27,396 bases of DNA from positions 1 through 27,396 of the IMG/VR virus record IMGVR_UViG_3300035698_003078. One strand, given 5' to 3'. The position numbers and the translations under genes are program-made. Source of the stretch: a virus. Below are positions 2,460-10,008 of the stretch, piece after piece. Positions within the stretch are counted from its first letter, which is position 1. Every line of letters begins with the position of its first letter. Below the pieces are notes generated by a model. The model was not told the origin of the DNA and ran no database searches. It saw only the letters and a list, made by a program, of their open reading frames with translations.

Positions 2460-2849
2460 ATGGAAAAATCAATATTAAGAGATCCTAAAACAGGTAGAGT
2501 ATTACCTGGAACAGCTCCTCTCAATCCAGCCGGTCGTCCTCCTAAAAAAAGAGACATATTAGATAAGATAATGAAAAGATTTTATGGTCCGGATTGTGAG
2601 CAATTGTTATTAAACATGATTGAGATAGCAGAATATGATTCAAAAGTGGATTATAATAATACAAAACCAAGTGAACGTAGATTCTTTAAACATAAATTCA
2701 GTTCTATTCAAATAGCAGATGCACGTAAGTTTCTATTTGAACACTTTTATGGGCGTCCTATAGCTGAAACACATACTGAAATTTCAACTCCACAAGATAC
2801 CGAGGTGAAGGTAAGTTTTATAAAATCAAAGAATATTGATATAGATTAA
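2460..2849 (+). CDS. Putative terminase small subunit (DUF5681-like N-terminus)
   Basis: The 129-aa product carries the segment PGTAPLNPAGRPPKKRD at about residues 16-32. This is the NPxGRP-plus-basic signature of DUF5681 proteins, which are commonly found just before phage terminase large subunits. The rest is mostly helical and charged, with a segment about residues 80-100 (IQIADARKFLFEHFYGRP) that resembles the oligomerisation part of small terminases. GGAGG stands seven bases before the ATG. The gene is followed by a hairpin and the HNH insertion, then the large subunit, so the usual TerS-TerL pair has been split. Small terminases recognise the packaging site and load the large subunit. 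Confidence 0.65.
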   Translation: MEKSILRDPKTGRVLPGTAPLNPAGRPPKKRDILDKIMKRFYGPDCEQLLLNMIEIAEYDSKVDYNNTKPSERRFFKHKFSSIQIADARKFLFEHFYGRPIAETHTEISTPQDTEVKVSFIKSKNIDID

Positions 2850-2929: not shown

Positions 2930-3556
2930 ATGAACAATTTATGTAAGTATGGTTGTGGACAAGAAGGTATAAAACAATTCAGTGATGCTACATGGTGTTG
3001 TAGTGAATCACATAATAGTTGTCCTGCAATGAAAAAGAAACAATTATTTGAATATACAGATGAAATGAGAAAAAAAATATCAGAAAGAACTATTGGTATT
3101 AATAATGCAATGTATGGAATGTGTGGAATTAAAAATCCAATGTATGGTAGGAAACATTCAGAAGAATCTAAAAATAAAATGAAATGTTTAAGACCAGAAA
3201 CCTCGAGAAAATTAACTGGTCATTCAGTTTCTATTGAAACAAGAAAAAAATTAAGTGAAGCAAATACTGGTAGAGTTATTAGTGAAGAATGGAAAGATAA
3301 TATTAGTAAGGGAATGATTGGGGTATGTGCAGGTCCTAAACAATATAAATGGAAAGGTGGAAATGCTGATTATTGGTCAAGAGAGTTAAGAAAGAAATAT
3401 AAAGAATGTTGTTTATGTAAATCAACAAATAGATTAGAATGTCATCATATAGATAAAGATAGAACTAATAATAATAAATCTAATCTTATTATTATTTGTA
3501 AAGAATGTCATTTATTTTGGCATGGTTATGGGGGGAATAAATTATATGGATATTAA
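2930..3556 (+). CDS. Free-standing HNH homing endonuclease with NUMOD3 repeats
   Basis: The 208-aa protein has three parts. An N-terminal zinc finger contains C5, C9, C23-C24 and C31-Pro. NUMOD3-type DNA-binding repeats follow at about 56-83 (NPMYGRKHSEESKNKM) and in the SIETRKKLSEANTG and SEEWKDNISKGMIG segments (about 101-130). The C-terminal HNH core has C160/C163, H172-H173, N-rich loop residues, C190/C193 and H198. All key residues are present, so it looks active. Such enzymes cut a conserved site in phages lacking the gene, which spreads it by recombination. It sits between the terminase subunits, and its last codons overlap the terminase ATG (3546). The interrupted Walker A codons of that gene lie about 70 bases downstream, which may be its target. 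Confidence 0.9.
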   Translation: MNNLCKYGCGQEGIKQFSDATWCCSESHNSCPAMKKKQLFEYTDEMRKKISERTIGINNAMYGMCGIKNPMYGRKHSEESKNKMKCLRPETSRKLTGHSVSIETRKKLSEANTGRVISEEWKDNISKGMIGVCAGPKQYKWKGGNADYWSRELRKKYKECCLCKSTNRLECHHIDKDRTNNNKSNLIIICKECHLFWHGYGGNKLYGY

Positions 3557-4745
3557 TATTGAGATACCAGAAATATTTGAGGATTTATTTTCCCCGTGTA
3601 GATATAAAATCTATTACGGGGGACGCTGACGTGGTGCTGGTAAGTCGCACTCTTTTGTTACTGCATTAGCTATATTAGGAACACAAGAATCATGTAAGAT
3701 TCTTGCATGTCGGGAATTTCAAAGCAGCATAAAAGATAGTGTTAAATCATTATTAGATTTAAAAATAAAAGAATTAGGTTTGGAATATTTTTATACATCA
3801 ACTCGGGATTCAGTTATTGGTTTAAATGGAACTGAATTTATATTTGCTGGATTAAAATCAAATGCTTCTAAAATTAAAAGTTTAGAAGGAATTAAATATT
3901 GTTTTGTAGAAGAAGGACAAACTATATCACAAGAAAGTATGGATATTTTAATTCCAACAATCAGAGTTGTTGATTCTGAAATATGGATTGGGTTTAATAC
4001 ATTATATGAAACAGACCCTGTATATAGAATGTTTGTTAAAGAAGGTAGACCAGATTCAATAGTTAAGAAAGTTAATTATTATGATAATCCATTTTTTCCA
4101 GATGTATTAAAAAAAGAAATGGAATTTGATAGAAAAAATAATCCAGATAAATATAAAAATGTATGGTTAGGTGAGATACTTACTATTAGTGAAGCAGCAG
4201 TATTTAAAGATAAGATTAAAATAGATAATTTTGAAACTCCTGAAGATGTAACATTTTATCAAGGATTGGATCCAGGATTCTCACAAGATTATTTAGCATT
4301 TATAAGATGTTGGATAGATGAAGAAACAAATCATTTGTATATAGATAAAGCAAATAGAAAATTAAAATTAGAGATAGATGATACACCAAGATTTTTAGAA
4401 CAAGTAATTCCTGGATGTAAAGAATGGATGATTACTTGTGATAGTGCAAGACCTGAATTAATAAGTTATCTAAAAAATAAAGATTTTTATATTCAATCAG
4501 CAAAGAAAGGACCAGGAAGTGTAGTTGAAGGGATATCATTTTTACAAAATTATACAATTGTTATACATGAAAGTTTAAAAGATGTTATTCAGGAATTTTT
4601 AATGTATAGTTATAAGATAGACAAACATACTGGTCAAATATTACCAAAATTAGAAGATGGTAATGATCATTATATAGATGCATTAAGATATGCTGTCGAA
4701 GATTATAACAGGGTTGATTATACAATAACGGTGCCGGGGGAATAA
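3546..4745 (+). CDS. terL: Terminase large subunit with in-frame TGA in the Walker A loop
   Basis: The frame from ATG 3546 to 4745 is 399 codons plus stop, with one internal TGA at codon 28 (3627-3629). Upstream residues end in RYKIYYGGR and the frame resumes with RGAGKSHSF, so the stop splits the Walker A loop. Downstream are the Walker B-like CFVEEGQ (about residues 119-125), the motif GFNTLYETDP, and the RNase H-like nuclease with D242 (GLDPGF), D299 (CDSARPE) and D374/D378 (NDHYIDALRY). This matches the Terminase_3 (PBSX/P22-type) packaging motor. The first usable start after the TGA is a TTG at 3780, which would yield only a product lacking the P-loop. Without recoding the gene would be null. 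Codons around the stop use CGC, CGT and CGG, unlike the AGA used elsewhere. Confidence 0.85.
3592..3632 (+). promoter_or_regulatory. Hairpin plus CGC-TGA-CGT, candidate recoding site
   Basis: The RNA hairpin is formed by CCCCGT (3592-3597) pairing with ACGGGG (3616-3621) and by an inner TAGAT/ATCTA (3599-3603 with 3609-3613), with a G-T pair, one bulged T and a loop of ATAAA. Five bases later come CGC TGA CGT (3624-3632). CGC and CGT are read by the same bacterial arginine tRNA (ICG anticodon). A six-base hop would therefore give GGR-GAGKS, the canonical P-loop. UGA followed by C is also a leaky stop context. A weak GTGC/GCAC stem (3634-3637 with 3647-3650) follows. A recoding function is inference. 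Confidence 0.35.
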
Positions 4746-8946: not shown

Positions 8947-8960
8947 TAATTAACCTTAGT

Positions 8961-8993
8961 AGGGGATCTGAAATATGGTCCCCTTTATTTTTA
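8961..8993 (+). terminator. Intrinsic terminator after the capsid gene
   Basis: AGGGGATC (8961-8968) pairs with GGTCCCCT (8977-8984, one T-G pair) across an 8-nt loop and is followed by a T-rich tail TTTATTTTT. This is the clearest rho-independent terminator in the window. It lies 15 bases after the capsid stop and would lower transcription of the downstream connector and tail genes relative to the capsid. Confidence 0.88.
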
Positions 8994-9025
8994 AATAATA
9001 TATCATCATAAATAGGAGATAATAT

Positions 9026-9604
9026 ATGGCTACATCAAAACTATGCTCCTTAGACGATGTTTTAGGACAATTAGGAATCAAAGAAACAAGTAATGATAAG
9101 GTTAATGATCTAATTGATAGAATGATTATATCTAAAACAGCAGGTATAACCAAATATATAGGTATGACACAAATATTAGCTCAAGATTATACTGAATATT
9201 ATAATGGTGATGGAGGTATAAGATTATATACAAACAATTCACCTATAAATTCAATTAGTGAACTAAATGCTGATTCTTATTGGGAATTTGAAAGTGGCAC
9301 TGAATTTGATGCATCTGATTATAGAATTTCAACTGATGGCACATATATATTATTAAAATATACAATATTTACTAAAGGTAATGAGAATATTAAGGTTATA
9401 TATAATGCAGGATATACTGAAGATCAAATAGTTGATTTGAAAGATGTATGTATTGAGGAAGTTACTAGATCATATAACGAAAAATTAAATGTTGGTATTG
9501 CTTCTAGAACAGATTCTAAAGGTGGAGTAACAAGAGTAGAGAAAGGTTGGATGAAACAATCGTTGCAGGTTATGGACAAATATAGAAAATGGACACTATT
9601 ATAA
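9026..9604 (+). CDS. Head-tail connector (gp6-like adaptor)
   Basis: The 192-aa protein starts with a small helical domain (CSLDDVLGQLGIKETSNDKV, then LIDRMIISKTAGITKYIG), typical of HK97 gp6/YqbG-type adaptors. A beta-rich insertion (TEYYNGDGGIRLYTNNSPI, SISELN) and YNAGYTEDQIVDLKDVCIEE before the C-terminal helix are the usual family elements. Adaptors form a ring under the portal. GGAG precedes the ATG. The stop overlaps the next start as TAATG, indicating coupled translation. The exact family is judged by pattern and position. Confidence 0.75.
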   Translation: MATSKLCSLDDVLGQLGIKETSNDKVNDLIDRMIISKTAGITKYIGMTQILAQDYTEYYNGDGGIRLYTNNSPINSISELNADSYWEFESGTEFDASDYRISTDGTYILLKYTIFTKGNENIKVIYNAGYTEDQIVDLKDVCIEEVTRSYNEKLNVGIASRTDSKGGVTRVEKGWMKQSLQVMDKYRKWTLL

Positions 9605-10008
9605 TGAAGATTAAACTAAATTTACCTAAAAAAGAGTTAGAAAAATTAAATAAAGGTAAAGCATTTAGAGCTGGTCTTCTTAAAGGTGTTACAGATGGAA
9701 TGTTATTTGCAGAAGGTGAAGCAAAGAAATCATTTGGTAGACCTGGTAAATTAAAAGTTAGAAGTGGTCTATTAAGAAAGAGTATAAAAACTAAAACTAA
9801 AGAAGTTAAAAATGGAGTTGAAGGAACTATAAGTAATGTTGTTAAGTATGCTGCTATACATGAATATGGTGGTAAGGCAGGTAGGAATAGAAATGTTACC
9901 ATACCTGCAAGACCATTTATGAAACCAGCTATTGAAGACAACAAAATAAAGATAAGTAGAATAATTCAACAAGCTATAAAGAAGGAGGTCATCAAAAATG
10001 CAAGATAG
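9604..10008 (+). CDS. HK97 gp10-like head-closure/tail-completion protein
   Basis: The ATG at 9604 overlaps the previous stop (TAATG) and is preferred over the in-frame ATG at 9589, giving 134 aa. The C-terminal half has the family hallmark: AAIHEYGG followed after a loop by IPARPFMKPAIEDNK, with basic, helix-forming flanks. These proteins (relatives of lambda gpZ) sit at the neck or the top of the tail. The gene overlaps the next by about four codons, and the ribosome binding site of the next gene (AAGGAGG) lies within its last codons. Confidence 0.85.
   Translation: MKIKLNLPKKELEKLNKGKAFRAGLLKGVTDGMLFAEGEAKKSFGRPGKLKVRSGLLRKSIKTKTKEVKNGVEGTISNVVKYAAIHEYGGKAGRNRNVTIPARPFMKPAIEDNKIKISRIIQQAIKKEVIKNAR

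Follow-up and report, generated by a model that had tools for sequence, protein, structure and literature searches.

To our knowledge only a handful of programmed ribosomal bypasses are known. In gene 60 of phage T4 the bypass involves matched codons and a 5' stem-loop which, folding behind the ribosome, promotes forward sliding, and the gene is adjoined by mobA (PMC11194080, PMC3014915, PMC5009743); the gene 60 insert has been proposed to give protection from a nuclease (PMC5009743). Hops over stop codons have been obtained with synthetic sequences in E. coli (Weiss et al. 1987, as reviewed in PMC5009743), and as of that 2016 review no natural in-frame stop hop was known. Bypassing has further been proposed for the terminase of Streptomyces phage Hau3, and in the mitochondria of Magnusiomyces short inserts, the byps, are neutralised through ribosome bypassing (PMC5009743). 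Spliced phage genes for the large terminase subunit (terL) with neighbouring homing endonucleases are found for example in ICP1, and terL is a hot spot for homing (PMC10448857). The present analysis concerns a stop codon within the P-loop of the terL gene of a virus, IMG/VR record IMGVR_UViG_3300035698_003078, and the putative bypass element around it. The window is the whole stretch analysed, positions 1 to 27,396 of that record (a 27.4-kb viral contig).

The terL frame is on the + strand and runs from ATG at 3546 to TAA at 4743-4745, with TGA at 3627-3629 as its sole internal stop. An earlier reading of the sequence (the original prediction) had described the frame as otherwise intact, which was borne out. 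The codons at 3618-3647 are GGG GGA CGC TGA CGT GGT GCT GGT AAG TCG, and the features of the gene are as follows.

3546..4745, + strand: terL, large terminase subunit with one internal stop (Pfam Terminase_3 3e-30 and Terminase_3C 2e-17, post-stop part; PHROG terminase large subunit)
3530..3535, + strand: Shine-Dalgarno (SD)-like G-run 5' of the terL ATG, from the sequence
3624..3626, + strand: putative take-off codon CGC (Arg), proposed from the sequence; CGC is rare in the genome
3627..3629, + strand: in-frame stop TGA with C as the next base, from reading-frame analysis
3630..3632, + strand: putative landing codon CGT (Arg), after which coding would resume at GGT 3633 to give the consensus GGRGAGKS

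Compared with its relatives, the window terL carries a 6-nt in-frame insertion resulting in CGC TGA CGT, and a skip of six bases restores GGRGAGKS. The size of the insertion is set at 6 nt because the relatives read [YWH]GGRG[SGA][GA]KS without two extra codons. The first comparison set comprised about 98 relatives from public viral contigs, all with GGRGxxKS and none with the insertion. The original prediction had placed a TGA between arginine codons in the Walker A motif (P-loop) and had proposed that deletion of six bases gives the canonical GGRGAGKS; both points agree with the reading at 3624-3632 and with the motif of the relatives. Because GACG is repeated, the insert has five equivalent placements, and the matched arginine codons therefore follow in part from the repeat. 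Among random in-frame 6-mers containing a stop, only about 3% would have codons of a single tRNA family on both sides of it, and the match around the window stop is more than chance. CGC is used once in the other 8,124 codons of the genome. The codons 5' of the stop are conserved like the remainder of terL.

Sequence comparison and structure prediction make it probable that the element is a programmed bypass, a ribosomal hop over the stop that is linked to homing immunity. Translation would begin at ATG 3546 and proceed across a predicted hairpin as far as CGC 3624, at which point UGA would occupy the A site. The peptidyl-tRNA-Arg would quit CGC, the ribosome would advance 6 nt and the tRNA would re-pair on CGU 3630, so that decoding resumes at GGU and yields the canonical P-loop. 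The forward movement would be driven by an SD-like G-run 5' of CGC together with refolding of the hairpin behind the ribosome. The 6-nt insert is probably kept as it disrupts a site for homing within the conserved DNA of the P-loop. The presumed homing nuclease is the product of an HNH gene between terL and the gene for the small terminase subunit (terS).

The same +6 design is found independently in a second lineage, represented by the 35.6-kb contig L214. Its terL reads GGG GGG CGA TAA CGA GGG GGA GCA AAG (GGR-stop-R-GGAKS), with the stop at the same P-loop codon as in the window, a +6 insert and matched arginine codons (CGA/CGA), and with TAA instead of TGA. The contig was found by a looser pattern scan of the viral contigs that gave five matches, of which one, L214, was a terminase; the exact +6 pattern CGN-TGA-CGN had no matches in all viral contigs. 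In L214, too, an HNH gene separates terS from terL and extends across the terL ATG; it has no sequence kinship with the HNH gene of the window and belongs to a different HNH family. Upstream of it, L214:391-459 (MPAIQLPEKAQCLFKPSRYKILY) is a remnant of the original terL 5' end, severed directly before the P-loop. A second terL 5' copy, in use from ATG 1196, is 68% identical to the severed copy in DNA and 90% in protein over 20 codons. This arrangement indicates insertion, at the P-loop, of an HNH cassette that brought with it a replacement 5' end for terL. The severed end gives indirect support to a nuclease that would cut the insert-free site but not the insert-bearing one.

A third lineage was revealed by a check of all fetched relatives and comprises two distant terminases, L184 and L185, each from a different metagenome. 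Both read ACG GGG GGG CGA TAA GT GGG AGC GGT AAA, with a stop at the same codon and an insert of 5 nt, and a 5-nt skip restores GGRGSGKS. The two contigs differ by 25 single nucleotide polymorphisms (SNPs) in 6.3 kb. In the frames examined the changed codons are 21 synonymous and 4 nonsynonymous, of which terL has 2 and 0, and both contigs keep the lesion. The stop-bearing lineage has therefore persisted under selection. On L226, the contig of L184, a gene for a short HNH protein (1432-1851) precedes the stop-bearing terL by about 6 kb.

The hop proposed in the original prediction thus gains support, at sequence level, from stops at the same codon in L214 (CGA TAA CGA, +6) and in L184 and L185 (+5). 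Its specific form, a six-base hop between matched codons, suits the window and L214 but fails as a strict rule, since L184 and L185 have +5 and CGA TAA GT. That the terminase is made only by such a hop is still an inference.

An error of sequencing or assembly in the metagenomic contig is highly improbable. The window is a single uncultivated contig, known here from assembled sequence alone, and a hairpin with a G-run, as at this site, makes errors more frequent. Six in-frame nucleotides with matched codons are, however, no typical error; L214 has an equivalent insert, and L184 and L185, from independent samples, share an identical insert at the same codon.

It is hardly more credible that the UGA is simply read through, giving a P-loop two residues longer (GGR-X-R-GAGKS). 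The terL frame does stay open past the stop, and in E. coli UGA followed by C is leaky. Such decoding would lengthen an otherwise invariant P-loop and leave the matched codons unexplained, and L214 has UAA, a tight stop. Since both UAA and UGA are used and L184 and L185 require a change of frame, readthrough does not explain the set. Nor is TGA sense elsewhere in the genome: reassignment (table 4 or 25) was rejected, as 8,124 codons contained no further in-frame TGA, and the window has 108 TGG codons and three genes that terminate with TGA. A self-splicing intron at the site likewise found no Rfam match in the window, and there are just 6 extra nt; neither the Rfam nor the tRNA scan of the window returned a match.

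In L184 a stop in the 0 frame follows the perfect heptamer G GGG GGG. Another kind of recoding at the element, for example -1 slippage on the G-run of L184 and L185 (GGAISGSGKS), with the hairpin and G-run of the window serving a purpose other than a codon-matched hop, has this heptamer in its favour and is nevertheless very unlikely. Neither in the window nor in L214 can a -1 or +1 shift bring back the reading frame, and in L184 a -1 shift would add two residues to the P-loop.

The region directly 5' of the stop in the window contains two features to which the programmed bypass would assign a role.

3590..3623, + strand: predicted RNA hairpin in the coding sequence, with 5' arm 3590-3603 (UUCCCCGUGUAGAU), loop 3604-3608 and 3' arm 3609-3623, with U3614 bulged
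3618..3622, + strand: SD-like G-run in the 3' arm of the hairpin, 1 nt from the take-off codon and 7 nt from the landing codon; its role is putative

In folding, the stem ends at the base directly preceding CGC 3624, and no other 36-nt segment of the contig's + strand is as stable as the hairpin (z -4.7 against synonymous recodings). When the region was recoded synonymously according to the codon usage of the phage, 0 of 20,000 variants matched its stability; with uniform codon choice, 17 of 20,000 did. The hairpin of L184 and L185 has -25.8 kcal/mol and z -8.2 against synonymous recodings, and ends one base before the take-off codon; in L184 it was likewise more stable than every synonymous recoding. 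In their stop-free relatives a hairpin is missing or at best weak (L181 and L179, z -1.0). A hairpin with z below -4 was found in two of three stop lineages and in 1 of 152 relatives (Fisher p 7.5e-4), and a G-run of at least 5 before the arginine codon in all three stop lineages and in about 19 of 154 relatives (Fisher p 0.0024). A family-wide tendency to form hairpins was rejected, as just about 6% of the relatives had p < 0.05. No take-off stem-loop containing the stop was found beyond the synonymous expectation (0 to +45 and 0 to +60 from the take-off codon).

Two further short hairpins are the next most stable on the + strand of the window, one at 8950-8995 in the gap after the capsid gene, which may be a terminator, and one at 9877-9912 within the open reading frame 9589-10008. 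The relative L071 has a coding hairpin and G-run 5' of its P-loop (1780-1840, z -4.7 to -6.2, no stop), and its gene upstream of terL (317-1228) is weakly similar to a PHROG homing-endonuclease family.

Upstream of terL the window contains the following genes.

2930..3556, + strand: HNH homing-endonuclease gene with NUMOD3 and HNH (Pfam NUMOD3 5e-12; PHROG HNH / homing endonuclease), overlapping the start of terL
2460..2849, + strand: probable terS, small terminase subunit, by position and size as in L134 and L135, where terS directly precedes terL

The terS candidate at 2460-2849 had no Pfam match over the cut-off. In L134 and L135 terS and terL are directly adjacent with no HNH gene between them, and the HNH gene of the window is therefore an insertion. 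A homing-type nuclease gene that is absent from relatives thus stands beside the interrupted terL of the window, and L214 has an unrelated HNH gene in that place. The gap between terS and the HNH gene (2850-2929) contains an inverted repeat, GGGTTATG...CATAACCC, followed by CCCTTTT, and is terminator-like.

Recombination at the 5' end of terL is only suggestive. Rare codons cluster at 3591-3804, in and around the hairpin and partly because of it; the best relatives of the first 66 residues differ from those of the rest; and DNA matches of the window to L134 and L135 begin at 3729 and 3740, respectively.

With these features at hand the insert could be a scar, left by hairpin-promoted slippage or after a nick or break made by the HNH nuclease had been repaired imprecisely, and the terminase could be dead in a defective phage or a decaying prophage. 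A null mutation is the commonest origin of internal stops, hairpins and nuclease cuts promote indels, the GACG repeat flanks the insert and the HNH gene adjoins terL. We consider a dead terminase unlikely all the same. The other main genes of the window are open, and 0 of 174 long terL matches had an internal stop, in an alignment that missed the defect of L184 and L185. Three lineages have been struck at the same codon, the stop always directly after GGR, while L184 and L185 have diverged under purifying selection with the lesion kept. A scar also leaves the presence of both hairpin and G-run unexplained. Assembly error and a dead terminase, named as null hypotheses in the original prediction, have accordingly lost ground, neither explaining L184 and L185, and a random 6-bp insertion scar, the other null hypothesis, does not explain recurrence at one codon.

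Several candidates for further cases were rejected. The 22 matches to CGN-TGA-CGN in bacterial genomes were not terminases, and a scan of 398 genomes of one phylum gave two matches, of which one was the L040 site and not a terminase. Three GenBank phages whose annotation or match length had raised suspicion (MW202691, MW202674 and MW202520) have intact P-loops, Bacteroides phage BS-TP2 reads GGRGSGKS, and terL of Nonlabens phage P12024L is annotated as a single uninterrupted gene.

A number of points weigh against the programmed bypass. Its prior is low because no natural in-frame stop-hop was known in 2016 (PMC5009743). No relative more than about 60% identical to the window covers the P-loop; the closest contigs by capsid or portal protein (L026, L132 and L133) all start downstream of the terL P-loop. 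The associations with hairpin and G-run are post hoc and rest on three lineages, the findings on L184 and on the G-run being exploratory. The stem in L214 is weak (CUCCCU pairs with the G-run; p 0.045), and terL of L071 has a strong hairpin comparable to that of the window, yet no stop, as the single such stop-free relative. In L184 and L185 the landing codon is imperfect (CGA to AGU, two of three pairs) and no HNH gene adjoins terL. The 3' arm of the hairpin would be inside the ribosome at take-off, and the hairpin could therefore act only upon re-emerging, once take-off has begun.

A wider reading is that these elements are recurrent minimal translational introns: P-loop inserts of 5-6 nt that bear a stop, are removed by hopping driven by hairpin and G-run, are kept because the most conserved DNA of the phage thereby becomes immune to HNH homing nucleases, and have arisen independently with unrelated nucleases and phages. 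This is put forward tentatively, as slightly more apt to be wrong than right. If true, ribosome bypass would have evolved repeatedly to tolerate inserts at homing sites, T4 gene 60 would become one of a class and no longer a singular curiosity, and small elements of about 45 nt would be available for testing the effect of mRNA hairpins and SD-like runs on ribosome movement. Viral surveys may wrongly discard terminase genes with a P-loop stop as pseudogenes.

Among known systems, by analogy, a stop-hop built like T4 mobA/gene 60 would be the best explanation of the element. This parallel, the hairpin and the adjacent HNH gene are additions to the original prediction. As in T4 gene 60, a stop directly follows the take-off codon (CGC TGA in the window). 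The matched codons of T4 gene 60 recur in the window (CGC/CGT) and in L214 (CGA/CGA), but not in L184 and L185. Its 5' stem-loop has a predicted counterpart at 3590-3623 of the window and in L184 (z -8.2), the one in L214 being weak, and its SD-like element has a counterpart in the G-run of the window. T4 gene 60 is adjoined by the HNH gene mobA, and the window terL likewise by an HNH gene. The gap is 6 nt and in frame in the window, whereas it is 50 nt and out of frame in T4 gene 60; the hairpin of the window also lies directly against its take-off codon, and its gap showed no take-off stem-loop.

The other systems differ more. The stop-hops of Weiss et al. were made in constructs. Hau3 shares with the window a terminase gene with proposed bypassing, which in Hau3 is centred on a UUA codon and thought to be regulatory and not bypass of an insert. 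The programmed +1 frameshift of prfB, the gene for RF2, has a G-run SD-like sequence and UGA C near the slip codon; it shifts by one base with a 3-nt spacer, and in the window +1 would not restore the frame. The byps of Magnusiomyces are mitochondrial, present in many copies, use an unused A-site codon and are largely context-independent, unlike the window element. In terL genes of the ICP1 type an intron is removed from the RNA, whereas the window, L214, L184 and L185 have 5-6 extra nt only, with no Rfam intron in the window. The T4 gene 60 case has been described as unique; the element of the window lies in the P-loop of terL and recurs in several lineages.
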